Of a stretch of 64,000 nucleotides of DNA, positions 1,479-50,800 are shown one piece after another. The first letter of the stretch is position 1; the number at the start of each line of letters is the position of its first letter. The notes under the pieces were generated by a model. It had not been told where the DNA came from and made no database searches. It saw nothing but the letters and a program-made list of their open reading frames with translations. Origin of the DNA: Methylocystis sp. IM3 (lineage in GTDB: Bacteria; Pseudomonadota; Alphaproteobacteria; Rhizobiales; Beijerinckiaceae); the NCBI RefSeq assembly GCF_038070105.1, contig NZ_JBBPBZ010000002.1, positions 1 through 64,000 of the forward strand. The letters run 5' to 3'. The position numbers were made by a program, and so were the translations under genes.

Positions 1479-3719
1479 TCAGGAAGCGGTGGAAAAGGCC
1501 GCATCGTCTCCGGCCATATAGGCCGGCAGCGGCGATTCATGTGCGCGGCGCAGCTCGGCGAGCGCGATCGGGGCCTCGCCGGGAAGGTTCAGAGACTCCC
1601 CGCCTGTGACGCCAATGGCCTCGACGGCCACGCCCCGCGCCGCGGCGGCGGCCCGAATCGCCGTCGCCGCTTCGGGCTCTGCGGCCAAGAGATAGCGGCT
1701 CTGATCCTCGCCGAAGAGAACCGCATGGGCCGGTCCTCTCGGCAAGACGTCGAGCGTCGCGCCGATCCCGCCCGCCAGCGCCATTTCGGCGAGCGCCACG
1801 GCGAGGCCGCCGTCGGAGAGATCATGCGCGGCCGAAACCCTGCCGTCGAGAATCTGCGCCCGAACGAAGTCGCCGTTCGACCGCTCGGCGGCCAGATCGA
1901 CCGGCGGCGGCGCGCCCTCCCGGCGCCCGCAGAGATCGGCAAGATAAGCGCTTTGTCCGAGCCAGCCGACGGTCTTGCCGACCAGGAGCAGAATGTCGCC
2001 GGCGCGCGCGAAACCCGTCGGCGCGGATGTCGCGACATCCGCGATCACCCCGACGCCGCCAATCGCCGGGGTCGGCAGAATCCCTGCGCCTTGTGTCTCG
2101 TTGTAGAGCGAGACATTGCCCGAGACGATCGGGAAATCGAGCGCCGCCGCGGCCTCGCCGATCCCCTGCAGGCAGCCCACGAACTGGCCCATATATTCCG
2201 GCCGCTCAGGGTTGCCGAAATTCAGATTGTCGGTGAGCGCGAGCGGCGTCGCGCCGCGCACGGTGATGTTGCGCCAGGCCTCCGCCACCGCCTGCTTCCC
2301 GCCCTCGACCGGATCGGCCGCGCAATAGCGCGCGGTCACGTCGGTCGTGACCGCGAGGCCCTTGGGGCCGTCCTTCACCCGAATCACCGCCGCGTCGCCG
2401 CCGGGCTGGCGCACGCTGTTGCCGAGAATGAGATGATCATATTGCTCCCAGACCCAGCGCTTGGCGCAGAGGTTCGGCGTCGCGAGGAGTTTCAGCAGGG
2501 CGTCGCGATTCGAGACCGGCGGCGTCACGGACGCCGGGTCGATGACGGGCTGTTTCGGCGTCGCGACCCAGGGCCGGTCGTAAACCGGCGCCTCGTCGCC
2601 CAGTTCCTTGATCGGCAGGTCGCATTTGATCTCGCCCTGGTGCCTGACGACGAAGCGCAGCGTGTCGGTCGTCTTGCCGACGATGGCGAAGTCGAGGCCC
2701 CATTTGCGGAAAATGCCCTCGGCCTGTTCCTCGAGCTCGGGCTTCAGCACCATGAGCATGCGCTCCTGGCTCTCCGAGAGCATCATCTCATAGGCGGTCA
2801 TGCCCTCCTCGCGGCAGGGCACAGCGTCGAGATCGAGCTCGATGCCGAGATTGCCCTTGGCGCCCATCTCCACGGCCGAGGAGGTGAGGCCGGCGGCGCC
2901 CATGTCCTGAATGGCGATGACTGCGCCCGACGCCATCAGCTCCAGACAGGCCTCGAGCAGGAGCTTTTCCGAAAAGGGATCGCCGACCTGCACTGTCGGG
3001 CGCTTCTCCTCGGCGTCGGCCTCGAAGGAGGCCGAAGCCATGGTGGCGCCATGGATGCCGTCCCGGCCCGTCTTGGAGCCGAGATAGACGATCGGATTGC
3101 CGACGCCGGCCGCGGCCGAATAGAAAATCGAATCGGCCCGGGCGAGTCCGACCGCCATGGCGTTGACGAGAATATTGCCGTCATAGGACGGATCGAATTC
3201 CGTCGAGCCGCCGACGGTCGGCACGCCGAAGCTGTTGCCATAGCCGCCGACGCCCGCGACCACGCCCGACACCAGATGGCGCGTCTTGGGATGCCCGGGT
3301 CGTCCGAAGCGCAGCAGGTTCAGGCAGGCGATCGGCCGCGCGCCCATGGTGAAGACGTCGCGCAGAATGCCGCCGACGCCGGTCGCCGCCCCCTGATAGG
3401 GCTCGATGAAGGACGGGTGGTTGTGGCTCTCCATCTTGAAGACGCAGGCGTCGCCGTCGCCGATGTCGATCACGCCGGCGTTCTCGCCGGGACCGCGAAT
3501 GACCCAGGGCGCCTTGGTCGGGAGCTTGCGCAGATGGATGCGCGAAGATTTGTAGGAACAGTGCTCGTTCCACATCGCCGAAAAGATGCCGAGCTCCGTG
3601 AAGGTCGGAGTCCGGCCGATGAGCGACAGGATGCGCGCATATTCATCGGGTTTGAGCCCGTGGGCGGCGGCGAGTTCGGCGTCGACTTTGGGTTCGGCTT
3701 TGATGGCGGTGGCTGTCAA
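1479..3719 (-). CDS. purL: Phosphoribosylformylglycinamidine synthase subunit PurL
   Basis: This 746-residue small-type PurL is the ATP-dependent amidase-linked synthetase that converts FGAR to FGAM in purine synthesis, working with PurS and PurQ, which are not in the window. Visible signatures are the N-terminal [11 protein letters not shown] motif with the catalytic histidine region, [14 protein letters not shown], and METHNHPS-like MESHNHPSF. The repeated AIRS-type domains have [17 protein letters not shown] near the C terminus. Length is standard for two-domain PurL of the PurS/PurQ/PurL system. It is probably the first gene of purL-bolA-grxD. Confidence 0.97.
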
Positions 3720-4010
3720 TGGAGCAGAGCCTTGCGCAGGGGCGGCGCTTTTTTTGGCGCCGATGCGGCGCGTCGCGCGCCGGTTTGCCTGAGGTTCTCA
3801 GGCGTTTCTCGCCATCTCGATTAGCGCCCGTCGTGCGGCAAGGCAACAGCGCCGGGATGTTGCGCAAGAGTCACAATAAGAAAGAATGAACCGTCCACAG
3901 GCTTTTTTTTGATCTTTATCAATTGATATTGCCGTAAAAAAGAGCAACCTTCGGCTCGACTCGGCGCGACGGCGTCGACCGTCTGCCAAAAGATTTCAAT
4001 GGGGGTTCCG

Positions 4011-4946
4011 ATGAGGAATGTTGTTCGCGGCGCTTTCGCTGCGATTGCGATGGGGACGGCCGCCGTCTCCGCTCACGCAGCTGATTTGGCGAGCATCAAG
4101 GAGCCGCTGGCGCCGCCGCCGCCGGTTATCGAGCCCTTCCATCCCTTCCAGGTCCGCCTCAAGGTCGGCGGCGTGATCCCGACCGAAGGCTCGGCCTTCA
4201 TCACCGATCGCGGCACCGGCAGCTATCTCGCCGTCGGGGGCATCAACCCGTGGCCGCAGACGGCGCTGAACACGCTCGGCTACAGCGGCGGCCCGGGCAC
4301 CCAGTTCTTTGGTTCGAACACCAATATTTCCTCTTCGATCGTTCCGATGATCGACGTCGCCTATTATCTGACGAAGAACTGGGCGATCGAGGCGATCTGC
4401 TGCGTCACCCCGCATCACGTGACGGGCGTGGGTCCGCTTCAGGGCGCCAGCGTCATCAAGACCTGGGTCTTCCCGCCGTCCCTGATGCTGCAGTATCACT
4501 TCACCAATTTCGGCGCTTTCCAGCCCTACCTCGGCGTCGGCGTGAACTTCACGACCTTCTGGGGCACGCGCGCCGGCAACCAGACCCAGCCGATCGCGTC
4601 CGCCAATCCCGCGCTCAACGCCGCCGTCCCGGGCTTCACCGCCTGGACGACCGCCTATTCGGCAAGCATCACCCCCTCCTGGGGCGTCGTGGGCCAGGCC
4701 GGCATCGACTATATGTTCAACGACCGCTGGGGCGTGAACGTCGATGTGAAATACATCATGATGGAGCCGACCGCTCACGTCTGGGCCGCCGCCAATACGA
4801 CGCCCGTCTCGGTGGGCAGCGGCTGCTTCAACTGCGGCCCGGTCTTCGTCCCGCTGAACCTCGCCGTGAAGATCAATCCGGTCGTCATCTCGGGCGGCCT
4901 GACCTATCGCTTCGGCGCGGATTGGGGCGTTCCGAAGCTCTTCTGA
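4011..4946 (+). CDS. OmpW family outer membrane beta-barrel protein
   Basis: This is a 311-residue OmpW-type 8-stranded barrel protein. A signal peptide (about residues 1-24, ending SAHA before ADLAS) is followed by a proline-rich linker, then alternating strands. Signatures include NWAIEAICCVTPHHV (OmpW normally has ELxAatPf-H here), a PYLGVGVNFTTFW strand and a final YRFGADWGVPKLF ending in Phe, as outer membrane proteins do. I chose ATG 4011 because GGGGG lies 5 bases upstream; ATG 3999 is also in frame. The 290-base gap to purL holds both promoters and an A/T-rich stretch near 3900-3950. OmpW proteins form narrow hydrophobic channels; the substrate is unknown. Confidence 0.9.
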   Translation: MRNVVRGAFAAIAMGTAAVSAHAADLASIKEPLAPPPPVIEPFHPFQVRLKVGGVIPTEGSAFITDRGTGSYLAVGGINPWPQTALNTLGYSGGPGTQFFGSNTNISSSIVPMIDVAYYLTKNWAIEAICCVTPHHVTGVGPLQGASVIKTWVFPPSLMLQYHFTNFGAFQPYLGVGVNFTTFWGTRAGNQTQPIASANPALNAAVPGFTAWTTAYSASITPSWGVVGQAGIDYMFNDRWGVNVDVKYIMMEPTAHVWAAANTTPVSVGSGCFNCGPVFVPLNLAVKINPVVISGGLTYRFGADWGVPKLF

Positions 4947-39053: not shown

Positions 39054-39434
39054 CTAGTCGCCGCGATAGACGCAGCCCTCGAAGCAGCTGTCCCGGAAAA
39101 TCCCGACTTCGGAGAGGCCCGGCGCGTCGGGCGCAAGCTCCCGCCAGACATAGAGGCAGAGGTTCTCGAGCGTCGGCTTGCCGAGCCCGTCCAGATCGTT
39201 GAGGAAGGAATGGTCGAGCTTTTCCCGCAGAACCGCGAGGCGGCGGCCGAGCTTGCCGAGGTCGATCACCCACTGCTCCTCGGGGTGGCGCTCGCCGCGC
39301 AGGCTCACGCGCACGCGGAAGGAATGGCCGTGCAGGTTGCGGTATTTGCCGCCGTCCTTGGCTTCCGGATCGTAAAGGGCGTGCGCCGCCTCGAAATAGA
39401 ACTCGCGGTAGACTTCGAACGTCGCCACCTTCAC
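39054..39434 (-). CDS. queD: QueD-like 6-carboxytetrahydropterin synthase family protein
   Basis: This 126-residue PTPS-fold protein has zinc-ligand histidines in EAAHAL and LHGHSF, the catalytic-dyad segment KLDHSF and a C-terminal SCFEGC with the pterin-anchoring Glu. The family's catalytic cysteine (CxxxHGH) is replaced by Tyr31 (YRNLHGH). GTG 39434 overlaps the queE stop, so the genes are coupled. QueD makes 6-carboxytetrahydropterin, the QueE substrate, in queuosine precursor synthesis. With the Cys missing, activity on the standard substrate is uncertain. queC and queF are not in the window. Confidence 0.88.
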   Translation of the reverse strand: MKVATFEVYREFYFEAAHALYDPEAKDGGKYRNLHGHSFRVRVSLRGERHPEEQWVIDLGKLGRRLAVLREKLDHSFLNDLDGLGKPTLENLCLYVWRELAPDAPGLSEVGIFRDSCFEGCVYRGD

Positions 39435-40063
39435 TTCACCCCGATCATCTTGTGGGTTTGCAGCGACAGGCGCCAGCGCGGATGCGCGAGGCAATAGTCG
39501 ACCGCGGCCCTCGTATTGCGCAGAATCTCCGGGCCGTCCATGGGCTGGAGCAGGAAATGGCCAAAGTCCAGCCCCTCGTAGAGCGACGGGTCGGCGCCCG
39601 CCTGCGGATAGACGAGCTTGAGCTCGTCGCCGCGGGTCTGCCTGAGCGGCGCTCCGGCCTTCGGCGAGACGCAGATCCAGTCGAGGCCGGGCAGGGCCTC
39701 GATCGAGCCATTGGTCTCGACGGCGATCTCGAACCCTTCGCGATGCAGGGCGTCGATCAAGGGTGCGTCGATCTGAAGCATGGGCTCGCCCCCGGTCAGG
39801 ACGGCGAAGCGCCCCTCCCGCTCCGGCCCCCAGAGCGCGGCGAGACGCCTCGCCAGCGTTTCGGCGTCGGCGAATTTGCCGCCCGCTTCGCCGTCGGTCC
39901 CGATGAAATCCGTGTCGCAGAAGCGGCAGGTCGCGTCGGCGCGGTCGTCTTCGCGCCCGCTCCAGAGGTTGCAGCCGGCGAAACGGCAGAAGACCGCGGC
40001 GCGGCCGGCGTGCCGGCCCTCGCCCTGTAGCGTCTTGAAGGCTTCCTTGACTGAATAGGCCAT
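39431..40063 (-). CDS. queE: 7-carboxy-7-deazaguanine synthase QueE
   Basis: QueE (210 aa) is the radical SAM enzyme that contracts 6-carboxytetrahydropterin to 7-carboxy-7-deazaguanine. It starts AYSVKEAFKTLQGEG and has the unusual CX14CX2C cluster motif (CNLWSG ... CRFC) characteristic of one QueE class, then VLTGGEPMLQID and VETNGS. ATG 40063 fits family length. It precedes queD with overlapping stop/start, a compact queE-queD pair. Confidence 0.95.
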   Translation of the reverse strand: MAYSVKEAFKTLQGEGRHAGRAAVFCRFAGCNLWSGREDDRADATCRFCDTDFIGTDGEAGGKFADAETLARRLAALWGPEREGRFAVLTGGEPMLQIDAPLIDALHREGFEIAVETNGSIEALPGLDWICVSPKAGAPLRQTRGDELKLVYPQAGADPSLYEGLDFGHFLLQPMDGPEILRNTRAAVDYCLAHPRWRLSLQTHKMIGVK

Positions 40064-45107: not shown

Positions 45108-46721
45108 TCACGGCCCCGGCGGCAGCCGCAAGACCTGCCCTGCCTTCAAGACCTGCCCCGCCTTCACGCGGCCCTTGCGCAGGCCGGGATTGGCGGCGGC
45201 GATGTCGCGCCAGCGCCCGGCGTCGCCATAGAGCCGGCGCGCGACGCTGGCGAGCGTATCGCCGCGCCGCACGACGTAGCGGCGTGGCGTCTCGGGGGCG
45301 GCCGGCCGCGTCTCGGCCGGCGGCGCCGCCGTCGTGGCGGCGGCCGCCTCGGGCGCGGACGCGGGCGCTTCGCCGGGCTCCACCACGTCGAACTCGCCGC
45401 GGATCATGCCCATCCAGCAGCTCCAGGGGATGACGCCGCTTTGCGTCGGCGTGAACTCGATCGTCTGAAGGCCGGGCTTCAGATCGAACTCGAGCCCCAG
45501 CGCGGGGACGACGATGCGGTTGTTGCAGCTCGTGAGCTCCGTGGCGTCGATCACCCATTTGACCGGCGCGCCCCTCGTCAGCGTGAAGCGGGACGGATGG
45601 TAGCCCAGTCCATTCGCCTCCATCTCGATGATCTGCACGGCGGACGCCGGCGGCGGGGCCGGGGCTTCGGCGCGCCGGATGCGCGCGGCGATCGAGGCGA
45701 GATCGGCGCCGGAGCCGGTCAGGATGAGGCCGCGATTGATCATCACCGCGCCGAGCGCCACGACGATGACGCCCGAGGCGCGCAGCAGTCGATGCGTGAG
45801 CGCGCTCGAGAGCATCGAGGCGACGGCGCCGAAGGCGAGCATCACCGGCAGCGTCCCGAGGCCGAAGGCGAAGAGCATCTTGGCGCCCTCGACCGCGCTG
45901 CCCGTTCCCGCCGCCATCACATACATGGCCTGAAGCGGGCCGCAGGCGATCATCAGCCCGTTGAGGAGGCCAATGACGAAGGGCCGATGGCGTCCGCTCG
46001 CCTCCCGAAAGATCCAGCGCTGCAGCGGCGCCGGCAGGCCGAGCCGGAATCGCCGCAGCGGCGCGAAAAGCCCCAGCATGTTGAGGCCGAAGACGATGAG
46101 GAACAGGCCCGCCGCCACGCCCGCCGCGCCACGCAGCAGCGGCGTAAAGGCGACGACGGCGCCGAGCGCGCCGAACAGCGCGCCGATGGCCGTATAGGAG
46201 AGCGTCTTGCCGGCCGCGAAGGAAAGATGGGCCAGCGCGGGGGCGCGCCCCGCCCTGGCCTCCGCCGTCGAATAGCCGACGACGAAAGCGCCGCACATGC
46301 CGACGCAATGGAAGCCCGTGACGAGGCCCAGCACGAAGATGAGCCACAGGCTCATCCGCCGGGAGGCGTCCGGCGCGCCGCTGTCGCCGATCCAGCGCGT
46401 ATCGATGAAAACGAGCGCGGCGAGCAGGAGCAGCGCGCCGGCCGCGAGCGCGAGACGCGCGGCAAGCGGCCGCTGCGGCCGGTTCTCCTCCTCGACGCGA
46501 TAGCCGAGCGCCTCGATGCTGCGGCGGATGACGGCGCAATCGACCCGCGCCGGATCATAGTCGACGACGACCGTTTCGGTCGGATAGCAGGCCGTCGCGC
46601 GGCGAACGCCTTCGAGCTTGCGCAGGCGCGCCTCGATGACATGCTCGCATCCATGGCAGTGCATGCCGCGGGCTCTCAAGCTGACGCTGGCGCATGTCCC
46701 GCTTGTCTCTGCGTTACTCAA
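45108..46721 (-). CDS. Four-domain fusion: HMA + TauE/DsbD-like membrane + cupredoxin-like + LysM
   Basis: This 537-residue protein has four modules in order. Residues 12-77 are a heavy-metal-associated domain (MHCHGC, Cys22/Cys25), and 123-335 are a six-helix sulfite-exporter/DsbD-type membrane domain (GFHCVGMCGAF, IACGPLQAMYVM). Residues 362-447 form a cupredoxin-like domain with Cys399, Cys435 and Met437 as possible copper ligands (PWSCWMGM). Residues 481-533 are a LysM domain (YVVRRGDTLASVARRLYG). The LysM end has an in-frame 18-base tandem duplication (repeated KAGQVL). The start codon is probably TTG 46721. A role in copper delivery or cytochrome oxidase assembly is inferred; the LysM part could bind peptidoglycan. 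Confidence 0.82.
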   Translation of the reverse strand: MSNAETSGTCASVSLRARGMHCHGCEHVIEARLRKLEGVRRATACYPTETVVVDYDPARVDCAVIRRSIEALGYRVEEENRPQRPLAARLALAAGALLLLAALVFIDTRWIGDSGAPDASRRMSLWLIFVLGLVTGFHCVGMCGAFVVGYSTAEARAGRAPALAHLSFAAGKTLSYTAIGALFGALGAVVAFTPLLRGAAGVAAGLFLIVFGLNMLGLFAPLRRFRLGLPAPLQRWIFREASGRHRPFVIGLLNGLMIACGPLQAMYVMAAGTGSAVEGAKMLFAFGLGTLPVMLAFGAVASMLSSALTHRLLRASGVIVVALGAVMINRGLILTGSGADLASIAARIRRAEAPAPPPASAVQIIEMEANGLGYHPSRFTLTRGAPVKWVIDATELTSCNNRIVVPALGLEFDLKPGLQTIEFTPTQSGVIPWSCWMGMIRGEFDVVEPGEAPASAPEAAAATTAAPPAETRPAAPETPRRYVVRRGDTLASVARRLYGDAGRWRDIAAANPGLRKGRVKAGQVLKAGQVLRLPPGP

Positions 46722-46994: not shown

Positions 46995-47192
46995 ATGGCA
47001 GACGAGAAGGTCGGTGGAAACGAACTGCGCCAGCCCGAAAAGGGGGGCGCGTTTCTTTCCGACGCGGAGCGTCGCGAAGCATTGAAGAAGATTGGCCGCT
47101 ACGCGGTCTATGCGTCCCCCTTGATGGTCGGGCTCTTGAAGGCCGACAAGGCGCGCGCGGACATTCCTCCAGGATCGATCCCACCTGGCTAG
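46995..47192 (+). CDS. Putative RiPP-type precursor peptide 1 (65 aa)
   Basis: This 65-residue peptide starts at ATG 46995, with CGGAG seven bases upstream. Residues 21-56 (from LSDAERREALKKIG to KARADIP) are nearly identical to the second peptide at 47327. The last ten residues, IPPGSIPPG, are quite different. A conserved leader with a divergent short Pro/Gly/Ser-rich tail is the hallmark of ribosomally made, modified peptide precursors. A leader-cleavage-like ARA lies just before the tail. A PqqD-type protein, which normally binds leaders, is encoded downstream. No known family is recognised. Confidence 0.7.
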   Translation: MADEKVGGNELRQPEKGGAFLSDAERREALKKIGRYAVYASPLMVGLLKADKARADIPPGSIPPG

Positions 47193-47269
47193 CGGCGACT
47201 CCCGAGGCGCGTTCGACTCGTAGTCGGCTCGTGAGTCCGGTCTCGCCGTTTCCTGTTGGTTTGTCGATG

Positions 47270-47285
47270 TTCCCGCGCGCGGGAA
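47270..47285. repeat. Perfect 16-bp palindrome between the two peptide genes
   Basis: TTCCCGCGCGCGGGAA is perfectly symmetric and lies 42 bases before peptide gene 2. It may be an operator or RNA hairpin separating expression of the two peptides; function is unknown. Confidence 0.5.
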
Positions 47286-47326
47286 TCTGTGTGGTTCGTG
47301 GGTTTCCTCCGAGCGGAGCAATCAAA

Positions 47327-47512
47327 ATGATGGATGAGGAAAAACCGCAGACGACGCCTGTCAGGGAGGCCGCCTCTCTTTCCGACGTCGAGCGTCGCGA
47401 GGCGCTGAAAAAGATTGGCCGTTACGCAGCCTATGCGGCTCCCTTGATGGTCGGCCTCTTGAAGGCGGACGCGGCGCGCGCGGGCATTCCTGTGGCGTCT
47501 GGCGATACATAG
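47327..47512 (+). CDS. Putative RiPP-type precursor peptide 2 (61 aa)
   Basis: This 61-residue paralogue of the peptide at 46995 has SD CGGAG eight bases upstream. Shared core: LSDxERREALKKIGRYA, then PLMVGLLKAD and ARAxIP. The C-terminal tail is GIPVASGDT, unrelated to peptide 1 and ending in a hydroxyl residue. Duplication is visible at DNA level from about 47059 versus 47379. The downstream HPr-kinase-like domain and the terminal Thr recall kinases that phosphorylate the C-terminal residue of lasso peptide precursors, but this is analogy only. The 216 bases to the next gene hold a short CGAGCC/GGCTCG hairpin. Confidence 0.7.
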   Translation: MMDEEKPQTTPVREAASLSDVERREALKKIGRYAAYAAPLMVGLLKADAARAGIPVASGDT

Positions 47513-47728
47513 CAGCGTATGTGAAATGTGCTCGAGCCGGTATGGGCTCGTTTCCGAGCGCAGGACCAAGCGTGCAGTCGGTTCGGGACGTCGGTCGCAG
47601 TATATCGGGCTGGCAGTGTTCGCGCGGCTTCCCTGCGGGATCGCTACCCTGATCGCTGATCGCGCGAACAGGGCGGGACGTTTGCGATTACGCTTTTTTG
47701 AGCCCAGACGCCTGGTCGGCGATTCCAG

Positions 47729-48916
47729 ATGAACATGCGCAGTCGCTCGATCGAATCCTGGTTCCTGGACGATCACCTGTTGATCGCCTCGCTCGAAGAC
47801 CGTGCGCTCAGACTATACAACGCGACTGCCGCGGGCTTGTGGCTCCTCTTGTCGGAAGGCCCCCAGAGTCGCTCAGAGCTTGCTGACCGTTATGCGAGCC
47901 TGTTCGGGATCGACAGCGCCAGAGCAGACCGCGATGTCGAGGCGCTCCTCTCGGAATGGGAAGAGATCAAAATCATCACGGGTCGGGCGGAGGGCCGAAT
48001 AAGGCCCGCGACAGAAAGCTCTCCGGTCGAAACGGTTTCCCATCGCCATCCGTCCGACGTTCCCGATCGGACAAAGATATTTTCGAAGGACTTTCAACTT
48101 CAGAATACAGCCTTTCGGGTCGAGGTCAGCAAATCCGACGGCATGGACACGCCGTTGGAGGCGACGCGGCTCGTTGCGATGCTCGCGGGCTTTCCGGCGG
48201 CTCGCGACGAGCCATCCACGACGTTCGAGGCAATCTTTGGAAGCGCGTCCGTTTATGTCAATGAAGGAAACGGCTCGATTTCAGCCTGGAGCGACAGCAT
48301 CGAGGCGGTCGCCGCGCTTCTGTCGAAAATATGTGAGACGGCGTATCCCGAGCGGAGGCTTCTCGCCGGGCTGCACGCGGCCTCCGTGGGGCTGGGCAAG
48401 GCGCTGATCCTGCCAGGGGTTTCGGGCGCCGGCAAAAGCACGCTTTCCGCTTATCTCTCCAGCCAGGGATGGCGCTACTTCGGCGACGACGTCATCGGCG
48501 TCGACGACGAGTCGTCCGTGATGCCCTTGCCGACCTCCGCCAATCTGAAGGATGGCAGCTTTTCGATTCTCGCCGACATGCACCCGCGCCTCTCGACCCT
48601 CGATGCTTTGGCGTTCGGCGCCAAAACAGTGAAATATCTGCCTTTGCCTTGCCAGGTCGACGGACCGGAAGATTTGAAGGTGGCGGGGTTCGTGTTTCTC
48701 AAATACGCACGAGGGAGCGAAACCGACCTGCAAACGATCGGAACCGTCGAGGCGCTCCAGAGGCTGATCGAAGCGCGCATTTGTCTCAGCAAGGACATCT
48801 CGATGAGCGGAATGGGCAAATTCGTCGCGATGATCCACGAAACGCCCAAATACGCTTTGGTCTATTCCGATCTTAAAGAGGCCGAGTCATGCCTGAGGTC
48901 GCTCATCCCGAATTGA
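47729..48916 (+). CDS. PqqD domain fused to HPr-kinase-like P-loop domain
   Basis: This 395-residue protein has two parts. Residues about 1-90 match the PqqD fold (ALRLYNATAAGLWLLLSEGPQSRSELADRY ... VEALLSEWEE), a RiPP recognition element that binds leader peptides. Residues about 125-395 form an HPr kinase/phosphorylase-like domain with Walker A GVSGAGKS (230-237) and acidic YFGDDVIGVDD. Such kinases tailor some lasso peptides. It lies downstream of two leader-like peptides and overlaps the nucleotidyltransferase gene by 28 bases, implying joint function. Expected role: leader binding and phosphorylation of the peptide tail (inference). Confidence 0.8.
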   Translation: MNMRSRSIESWFLDDHLLIASLEDRALRLYNATAAGLWLLLSEGPQSRSELADRYASLFGIDSARADRDVEALLSEWEEIKIITGRAEGRIRPATESSPVETVSHRHPSDVPDRTKIFSKDFQLQNTAFRVEVSKSDGMDTPLEATRLVAMLAGFPAARDEPSTTFEAIFGSASVYVNEGNGSISAWSDSIEAVAALLSKICETAYPERRLLAGLHAASVGLGKALILPGVSGAGKSTLSAYLSSQGWRYFGDDVIGVDDESSVMPLPTSANLKDGSFSILADMHPRLSTLDALAFGAKTVKYLPLPCQVDGPEDLKVAGFVFLKYARGSETDLQTIGTVEALQRLIEARICLSKDISMSGMGKFVAMIHETPKYALVYSDLKEAESCLRSLIPN

Positions 48917-49980
48917 CGAGGCTCAAATGGCTCGGTCATGCCTTGTCGCCTTACGGAGACAAGGACTGGGTTTGCCGGAACATCCCTCGCGATGAGCAGG
49001 ACTGGCGTTTCCTGATCGGCGTCGGCAGCCGGCATCTTGTTCTTCCGGCGCTCCATCGCGCGCTCGTCGCGGAAAAGATGGAAACGGAGCCGCCAGACGA
49101 CGCGCGGGAGGCGCTGGAAGGAGTCTATCTCCTGAATCGGGAGCGCAACCGTGCTCTCCGCGCGCAAATGCTGGAATTGAGTCATTTGCTGAACGGCCTC
49201 GGCGTGGCACCTGTTTGGCTGAAAGGCGCGACGACGCTCCTGAACGAGGATTGGGCCGCCAGCGCCCGCATGATGGTCGATCTGGACTTCTGGATCGAGG
49301 ACGAGCGGGCCTATGACAACATCCTCGCCACCTTCGATCTCGACGGTTACCAAACCTGTGAGGGCGATACCGGGGAAAATCATCTCGAACATCACCACTT
49401 TGCCCCGAGATACAAGAAGGGGCGGCCTGCCTCGGTCGAGTTCCACAAAAGCCCCTGCGAGTTGAAGTTCCAGGATCTTCTCGACGGCGCACGCGCAATC
49501 GATCGCGTCGAGTGGATCGCGTGGGAGGGGACGGAGATCGGCCAGCTCTGCGCCGTCGACCGGCTGATGAACAGCTACCTTCAATGCATCAGTTTCCACG
49601 CGGACGTGAACAGGCCAGACGACCGCCGCCTGACGGCCGTCGCCCATTTTTCGAAAACGCTCGACTTTCTGGAGAGGTTCGCTGCCTCTCAGACGTCCAC
49701 GAAGGATGAGTTTTTCCAACGCCTGCGCGCCGGGCGTCGAATGTCGGACGCACGAAAGTTTTTTTCGATCCTGAAACTCTATTTCGGTCTGGAGGCCGGC
49801 CTCGACGTCGACGCGTCCTTTCTAAAATCGATTGTTTTTGCGACCAGACACCCGAAATTTGTCTATGCGAGGTACATGGCGGGGCATGCCTGGAAAACAG
49901 TGGTCGACGGTCGTCTGGGGCCACCGGGCGCATGGTGGACCAAGATTTACCGGCACGCGCGGAATTTCCACGAACGGTGA
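48889..49980 (+). CDS. Nucleotidyltransferase family protein (NTP_transf_5-like)
   Basis: This 363-residue protein has PVWLKGATTLL followed by RMMVDLDFWIED, the KG...DxD pattern (Asp131, Asp133) of the uncharacterised nucleotidyltransferase family found beside PqqD and HPr-kinase-like genes in RiPP clusters. Later motifs are HHFAPRYKKGRPASVEFHKSP and DRLMNSYLQCISFH. Its start lies inside the preceding kinase gene, so translation is coupled. A plausible task is nucleotidylation or other modification of the peptide, or of a phosphate placed by the kinase; this is untested. Confidence 0.78.
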   Translation: MPEVAHPELTRLKWLGHALSPYGDKDWVCRNIPRDEQDWRFLIGVGSRHLVLPALHRALVAEKMETEPPDDAREALEGVYLLNRERNRALRAQMLELSHLLNGLGVAPVWLKGATTLLNEDWAASARMMVDLDFWIEDERAYDNILATFDLDGYQTCEGDTGENHLEHHHFAPRYKKGRPASVEFHKSPCELKFQDLLDGARAIDRVEWIAWEGTEIGQLCAVDRLMNSYLQCISFHADVNRPDDRRLTAVAHFSKTLDFLERFAASQTSTKDEFFQRLRAGRRMSDARKFFSILKLYFGLEAGLDVDASFLKSIVFATRHPKFVYARYMAGHAWKTVVDGRLGPPGAWWTKIYRHARNFHER

Positions 49981-50419: not shown

Positions 50420-50671
50420 CTAGCCCCAAAGATTGCACCAGCCGCGCGCGCTCACCGGCCCCTTGATGACGCCGCAGCCCGACGGCGGCTCGAACCAGGA
50501 GCAATTGGCGCAGCGCTGGCGCCCATTGGGCGACGCGCGATAGGCGGCCGCCGACTGGCTGGTCTTGGCTCGCGCCGGGGCCGCGCCGAAAAACGCGCCG
50601 AGCCCTGAAAAAACAGCCGTCGCGCCAAGGAGCGCGAGGACGCCGCGCCGTCCGTGATCGCTTTTGCGCAT
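50420..50671 (-). CDS. High-potential iron-sulfur protein (HiPIP) with Tat signal
   Basis: This 83-residue protein begins MRKSDHGRRGVLALLGAT, a twin-arginine-type signal with cleavage near ARA. The mature part has four cysteines, CANCSWFEPPSGC and ARGWC, spaced as in HiPIPs (CxxC-x8-C-x12-C) holding a [4Fe-4S] cluster. It is probably a periplasmic electron carrier. A role next to sulfide oxidation is suggested by position only. Confidence 0.85.
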   Translation of the reverse strand: MRKSDHGRRGVLALLGATAVFSGLGAFFGAAPARAKTSQSAAAYRASPNGRQRCANCSWFEPPSGCGVIKGPVSARGWCNLWG

Positions 50672-50800
50672 GAGAACCTCCCCGCCCAAAGCGACGCCGA
50701 CCGCCGCGCCGGCGTCTTTAATTCGCTTTGTCTAATGTAAGCGCGCCGGCCGCGCCCAAGAATGCGACAAATCGAGCCAGGCAGGCCGACGGCGCGCTGC

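Follow-up and report, generated by a model that had tools for sequence, protein, structure and literature searches.

What does a cell make with two short leader-type peptides, a kinase and a nucleotidyltransferase that are encoded side by side? The question is raised by a stretch of 64,000 nucleotides (the window) from the alphaproteobacterium Methylocystis sp. IM3 (contig NZ_JBBPBZ010000002.1, positions 1 to 64,000), in which such genes form a compact cassette. A preliminary description made from the letters had called the cassette similar to loci for ribosomally synthesized and post-translationally modified peptides (RiPPs), and our analysis confirms this observation. We consider it likely that the cassette is also of RiPP type in its function: a RiPP recognition element (RRE) would bind the leader, the kinase would phosphorylate one serine, the NTP_transf_5 protein would extend the modification, and the signal-like leader would be cut at an AxA motif. 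Loci, genomes and contigs are given below with our own labels (L, G and C).

Cassette layout

The four genes are adjacent, all on the plus strand, in the order peptide 1, peptide 2, PqqD-HprK fusion and NTP_transf_5. Their features are the following.

46995 to 47192, plus strand: precursor peptide 1, 65 amino acids, with RR at 47070-47075, YASP (YxxP) at 47109-47120 and ARA ending at 47159; predicted core DIPPGSIPPG, predicted acceptor Ser61 at 47175-47177
47327 to 47512, plus strand: precursor peptide 2, 61 amino acids, with RR at 47393-47398, YAAP at 47432-47443 and ARA ending at 47482; predicted core GIPVASGDT, predicted acceptor Ser58 at 47498-47500
47729 to 48916, plus strand: fusion of PqqD (RRE) and HprK, 395 amino acids
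47741 to 47992, plus strand: RRE domain (fusion residues 5-88), structural match to the lasso RRE TbiB1
48347 to 48913, plus strand: HprK-like kinase domain (fusion residues 207-395), with His216, Gly235-Lys236 and Asp253-Asp254 conserved
48889 to 49980, plus strand: NTP_transf_5 nucleotidyltransferase, 363 amino acids, overlapping the kinase gene by 28 bases

The peptides are paralogues, as had been supposed: they share 73% identity across 49 residues, and 77 of 90 bases are identical in the stretch from RR to ARA of their genes. GGAG lies upstream of both. The ATG of the nucleotidyltransferase gene is located inside the kinase frame, which makes coupling of the two genes plausible.

The whole window was scanned with six profiles (kinase, nucleotidyltransferase, PqqD, peptide, lasso cyclase and lasso B2), the last two each built from one sequence of a lasso-type cluster elsewhere in the same genome. 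All matches in the 64 kb were confined to the cassette genes, without an extra copy, a lasso cyclase or a B2 protein, in agreement with the earlier statement that no lasso cyclase is nearby. A QueE-like radical SAM gene at 39431-40063, 7 kb away and named by sequence only, looks unrelated. The lasso-type cluster itself (L015, contig C6, 9425-15362) consists of genes for a radical SAM/SPASM protein, an HprK-like kinase, a transglutaminase-like B2 protein, an Asn synthase, a PqqD protein and an NTP_transf_5 protein.

The fusion kinase and the nucleotidyltransferase

The two enzymes named in the preliminary description are present as described. Pfam PqqD (PF05402) matches residues 31-83 of the fusion above its cut-off (E 1.6e-7), and NCBIfam HprK_rel_A (TIGR04352) matches residues 215-392 with 73.1 bits, below its 200-bit cut-off. 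Among the matches listed at E values up to 10, none of the four cassette proteins has one to TIGR04353; the PqqD domain is fused here. The predicted structure of the fusion has a pLDDT of 87.3, and a structure search with the model matched residues 5-88 to the lasso-peptide RRE TbiB1, which was solved with a leader, and residues 207-395 to the HPr kinase (HprK/P) fold. Across 14 aligned kinases, His216, Lys236 and Asp253 are invariant and Asp254 is conserved in at least 90%; a His-Lys-Asp-Asp motif has been described for lasso-tailoring kinases (PMC9266682). For the downstream protein, PF14907 (NTP_transf_5) scores above the Pfam cut-off (E 2.6e-20). Lys112-Gly113 and Asp131-x-Asp133 are invariant across five aligned sequences, and the structure model obtained from five sequences is poor (pLDDT 49).

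In the kinase tree, the fused state needs seven changes, at least three of them forced by well-supported branches. Two loci (L106, L107) have a reversed fusion, with a PqqD-type match behind the kinase in one reading frame.

A peptide family with a fixed serine

Neither the window peptides nor 17 relatives gave a convincing Pfam or NCBIfam match. A search with a peptide profile recovered 1129 proteins at E 1e-3 among 7988 candidates scored. In the 120 of these matches that were listed, RR is present in 120/120, and so is a Ser at position +18 from the leader proline, where Thr never occurs; Ala is found at +14 in 117/120 and at +16 in 96/120. Both window peptides have Ser at +19, past ARA, despite their differing tails. 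The own genome holds a second cassette of peptide, fusion and nucleotidyltransferase (L014, contig C6), whose peptide has Ser at +15. YxxP, a motif bound by the RREs of lasso peptides and of the linear polyphosphorylated peptides (LPPs) of Bacillota (PMC13381572), occurs in both window peptides and, among others, in those of Methylobacterium tardum and Shinella, while a set of TPP-type peptides is without it. Peptides next to non-fused HprK-like kinases also start with RR, and several of them contain YxAP, suggesting that the pairing of kinase and RR-leader peptide either predates the fusion or had more than one origin.

The association of peptide and kinase exceeds chance. A strict regular expression for the leader, drawn partly from the same peptides, found four matches in 220 kb outside cassettes. 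Of 30 kinase loci, each 2.3-4.2 kb long, 18 have at least one match; if the locus of the window is left out, the figure is 17 of 29. There were matches in 11 of 19 phylum loci. Some of the locus matches look spurious, namely the first one in L037, which lies inside the kinase, and those in L143 and L144.

RR and AxA together suggest a signal peptide that would take the place of a dedicated protease and exporter. Since no Tat (twin-arginine translocation) signal model was among the matches of 19 peptides, export by Tat rather than Sec is a guess. In the open-licence literature, where absence is weak evidence, neither the peptides of Alphaproteobacteria nor their invariant serine nor a fusion of RRE and HprK came up, and we found no article there on the HPr-rel-A families, on NTP_transf_5 (PF14907) or on twin-arginine signals in RRE-bound precursors; the main text of a 2025 survey of RREs (PMC12710340) mentions neither HPr nor kinase nor nucleotidyltransferase.

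Distribution and co-occurrence

All genome counts from genus to phylum include the own genome. Within the genus, the kinase profile matches 2 of 39 genomes at E 1e-15, namely the own genome and a conspecific one. The window kinase matches 6 of 149 genomes of the family at 1e-10. In the 385 genomes of the class, a kinase profile has matches in 35 at 1e-15 and a peptide profile in 15 at 1e-3. For the phylum, the figure is 56 of 299 genomes with the kinase profile at 1e-30. Many of the matches in class and phylum span the kinase domain alone. As full-length fusions outside the own species we counted matches starting within the first 30 model positions, together with loci of the family search that have PqqD and kinase matches in one frame. 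There are 22 of them, four from the family search (G123, G100, G046, G071), 11 from the class search (G506, G493, G528, G333, G234, G458, G226, G515, two in G379, G373) and seven from the phylum search (G748, G732, G706, G792, G775, G637, G704), including the near-copies G748 and G732, and excluding G078 (no PqqD match) and G660 (positions 22-336, two internal stops).

An RR-leader peptide lies near 17 of the 22 full-length fusions, an NTP_transf_5 gene near 16 and both near 14, in stretches that vary from 6.7 to 20 kb per locus. The peptide count includes G515 (across two contig ends), G775 (a weak profile match, E 2e-3) and G704 (loose pattern only). Fusions with no peptide nearby are those of G506 (which has peptides some 50 kb distant and elsewhere), G373, G458 (contig ends, with a weak edge piece only) and G226 (a 6.7-kb contig, with weak peptide matches on other contigs), and the second one of G379. 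The preliminary description had proposed a search for the leader peptide near such fusions in other genomes, and had taken homologues consistently lacking one as a finding that would speak against the idea. The outcome, a peptide at 17 of 22, is in its favour.

Plasmid records match as well. Among the eight examined, out of 32 that match either kinase query and with the Sphingomonas record (L085) described below as one of them, an RR-leader peptide stands beside the kinase in Methylobacterium tardum pMt-1 (L079), Ensifer adhaerens (L080), Sinorhizobium meliloti Ak57 pSymB (L081), Leisingera aquaemixtae (L082), Shinella (L084) and Parasedimentitalea psychrophila (L086). All of these have a nucleotidyltransferase match except Shinella, and the PqqD profile has no match in L082, L084 and L086. 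The kinase of Methylosinus sp. C49 (L083) comes without a PqqD, peptide or nucleotidyltransferase match; in this Methylosinus plasmid region (L083, L016) the HprK-like kinase is located beside a CusA efflux gene, perhaps as a decayed cassette.

RR-leader peptides also occur in stretches where no kinase match was seen (L119, L120, L121, L122, L123, L124, L125, L126), with several kinase-less peptides per genome in G506, G528 and G226. This scatter suggests that one kinase may serve scattered precursors.

Genomic setting and origin

The cassette was probably acquired, judging by its low G+C content at third codon positions (0.71-0.73, versus 0.85-0.90 for six other window genes) and by the fact that its kinase was not found in the other 37 genus genomes searched. 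In the genome of the same species (G544, L128) the locus is 98.5% identical, with a sulfide:quinone-reductase-like gene at the same distance. The kinase gene differs there by six silent and six replacing codon changes and the nucleotidyltransferase gene by five silent and four replacing ones. Peptide 2 is frameshifted and short; the frames of peptide 1, kinase and nucleotidyltransferase are intact over the compared stretch.

The neighbours in the window look related to sulfide. Three of them were named by matches below cut-off: a BigR-like regulator (94 bits), a persulfide-dioxygenase-like protein of metallo-beta-lactamase fold and a sulfide:quinone-reductase-like oxidoreductase. TauE, cytochrome bd and two YgaP-like proteins are also among them, and a Crp-type regulator adjoins the cassette too. 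The preliminary description had placed the cassette in a sulfide-response block, a setting that does not carry over to its relatives: tblastn against 60 other loci (923 kb) at E 1e-5 gave no match for 11 of 13 window neighbours, and on this ground we rejected a general link to sulfide. The metallo-beta-lactamase-fold neighbour has two matches with 32-35% identity, both next to peptides without a kinase (L119, L124); a YgaP-like neighbour has one, near the L018 cassette. Two further genes on the minus strand of the window encode a single protein joining HMA, DsbD_2 and LysM domains (45108-46664) and a small Cys-containing protein with an RR start (50420-50689), possibly a high-potential iron-sulfur protein, whose similarity to the iron oxidase Iro is weak (below cut-off, at 36 bits).

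A general link to ABC exporters was rejected too, as the ABC cluster (11 proteins from 10 loci) is mixed. Of seven members tested, five belong to type I secretion (L017, L018 and L126 above cut-off, L112 and L113 below) and the other two are an ABC-F protein (L125) and a sugar importer (L105); HlyD was confirmed in three of the five loci where it clustered. Type I secretion ABC genes with HlyD lie near kinase or peptides in L017 (14925-18091), L018 (4709-7929), L112, L113 and L126. At 2517-4464, L017 also encodes a Cys-rich secreted peptide of 85 amino acids beside two genes that seem to resemble a bufferin-type cluster of multinuclear non-heme iron-dependent oxidases. In L102, L103, L108 and L111, a non-fused kinase and an RR-leader peptide stand within exopolysaccharide-type loci, whose glycosyltransferases and sugar enzymes were judged by sequence; some of the peptides have PSRP-type repeat tails.

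Proposed mechanism and alternatives

We suggest the following model. The N-terminal RRE of the fusion would bind the YxxP part of the leader, and the HprK domain would move one or more ATP phosphates to the single Ser just past AxA, for which Ser61 of peptide 1 and Ser58 of peptide 2 are the candidates. In LPPs, LppK places several phosphates on Ser3 of the core; S3A abolishes the modification and S3T stays unmodified (PMC13381572). The conservation of Ser, never Thr, in the peptide family fits this failure of LppK on S3T. The coupled NTP_transf_5 protein may then put a sugar or nucleotidyl group on the phosphoserine, as PsmN appears to do in pseudomycoidin, where PsmK phosphorylates and PsmN is required for hexose addition (PMC9266682); deletion of lppN left the detectable LPP products unchanged (PMC13381572). 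The order, phosphate before extension, is adopted from the LPP and pseudomycoidin parallel. With its RR start, weakly hydrophobic middle and AxA end, the leader could act as a Tat-like signal peptide, and a linear modified peptide of 9-10 residues would be set free by housekeeping export and signal peptidase, with no dedicated protease or exporter needed.

The preliminary description had gone further and suggested that the set may define a distinct phosphorylation/nucleotidylation pathway. A phosphorylation pathway is indeed likely. In other respects the proposal was incomplete: the gene set is widespread and not defined by the window, and a cyclase-free HprK/nucleotidyltransferase pathway for peptides has already been published for Bacillota (PMC13381572). 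As a tentative extension, which we would not expect to hold in full, the cassettes might represent a large unnamed alphaproteobacterial class of exported phospho- or glycophosphopeptides, in which the twin-arginine signal is the RiPP leader, the RRE-kinase fusion does the class-defining chemistry, the nucleotidyltransferase builds a phosphodiester-linked group tying the peptide to a surface polymer, and one kinase serves several scattered precursors per genome.

Among the alternatives, the one that survives best, improbable as it is, takes the peptides for ordinary small exported proteins with signal peptides, and lets kinase and nucleotidyltransferase act elsewhere, for example on a sugar or surface polymer, so that they would share with the peptides only an export or exopolysaccharide setting. 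The resemblance of RR and AxA to a signal peptide, and the exopolysaccharide-type and type I secretion genes near the loci named above, would be expected under this explanation. However, the fusion of an RRE to the kinase implies that its partner is a peptide, the peptides recur by the kinase on either side and strand, and one Ser is fixed while the tails diverge.

A regulatory switch, with peptides that stay in the cell as small inhibitors or sensors and undergo phosphorylation in the manner of HPr, is less probable still. The HprK-like fold and the BigR-like and Crp-type regulators next to the cassette are consistent with it, but the sulfide block is hardly common to other loci, and the AxA end, the hypervariable low-complexity tails and the nucleotidyltransferase gene fit an exported product better. 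Finally, a remnant or satellite of a phosphorylated lasso pathway, acting in trans with the lasso-type cluster on C6, is very unlikely even though that cluster is in the same genome and the tailoring enzymes of lasso clusters are of the same kinds (PMC9266682), since the cassette has its own RRE and peptides and the cluster its own kinase and nucleotidyltransferase gene, the single-sequence cyclase and B2 profiles match only L015 among the scanned loci, the window peptides lack the C-terminal Ser of paeninodin-type precursors, and a supported branch of the kinase tree (98/93) separates the lasso kinase (a long row of unsure placement) and 14 other rows from the window's side, on which 24 of 26 fused rows fall, the other two (L106, L107) having PqqD behind the kinase.

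Significance

NCBI annotates the pair of kinase and nucleotidyltransferase without a substrate. The proposed RiPP-type pathway would supply a testable one, together with a predicted residue, and linear phosphorylated RiPPs, known from Bacillota, would then be found in Alphaproteobacteria too. Members reside on genetically tractable replicons of Methylobacterium, Ensifer and Sinorhizobium meliloti. Should the leader prove to be a genuine Tat signal, it would show how a RiPP can do without its own protease and exporter. What NTP_transf_5 proteins do, which is unsettled, would become testable in a system of three or four genes.

Comparison with known systems

Paeninodin and pseudomycoidin lasso clusters share the tailoring by an HprK-like kinase and a nucleotidyltransferase (PMC9266682), but the window has no match to a lasso cyclase or B2 protein, and the Ser of its peptides is not C-terminal. 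The HPr-rel-A system of NCBI has a TIGR04352 kinase, a TIGR04353 PqqD protein and a nucleotidyltransferase side by side, for example on a Sphingomonas parapaucimobilis plasmid (L085). Its PqqD protein is separate, however, the window kinase stays far below the TIGR04352 cut-off, and the Sphingomonas kinase falls in a clade of nine non-fused kinases without the window kinase; in this one locus, no peptide was found by regular expression or peptide profile.

The LPPs of Bacillota (Popov et al. 2026, published in May 2026, PMC13381572) resemble the cassette in more respects. Both have an HprK-like kinase and a nucleotidyltransferase without a macrolactam cyclase, both have an RRE, a YxxP leader and a single conserved Ser early in the core, and both are often within polysaccharide loci. 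The LPP RRE is discrete, whereas that of the window is fused to the kinase, and of the LPP leader YxxPxVLxHQxIxFETxxS the window peptides share the YxxP part alone, adding RR and AxA. LPP clusters carry a SipW-like peptidase and an MsbA-like exporter; neither was recognised among ten scanned neighbours or as a recurrent neighbour, and no dedicated profile for either was run. LPPs are stated to be restricted to Bacillota, and the main text of that article mentions neither Pseudomonadota nor Alphaproteobacteria nor Proteobacteria. By the features tested, the cassette is not a member of the LPP, HPr-rel-A or lasso systems. By analogy it most likely works like an LPP cluster, and it would then be an alphaproteobacterial version of the linear phosphopeptide RiPP idea already published for Bacillota.

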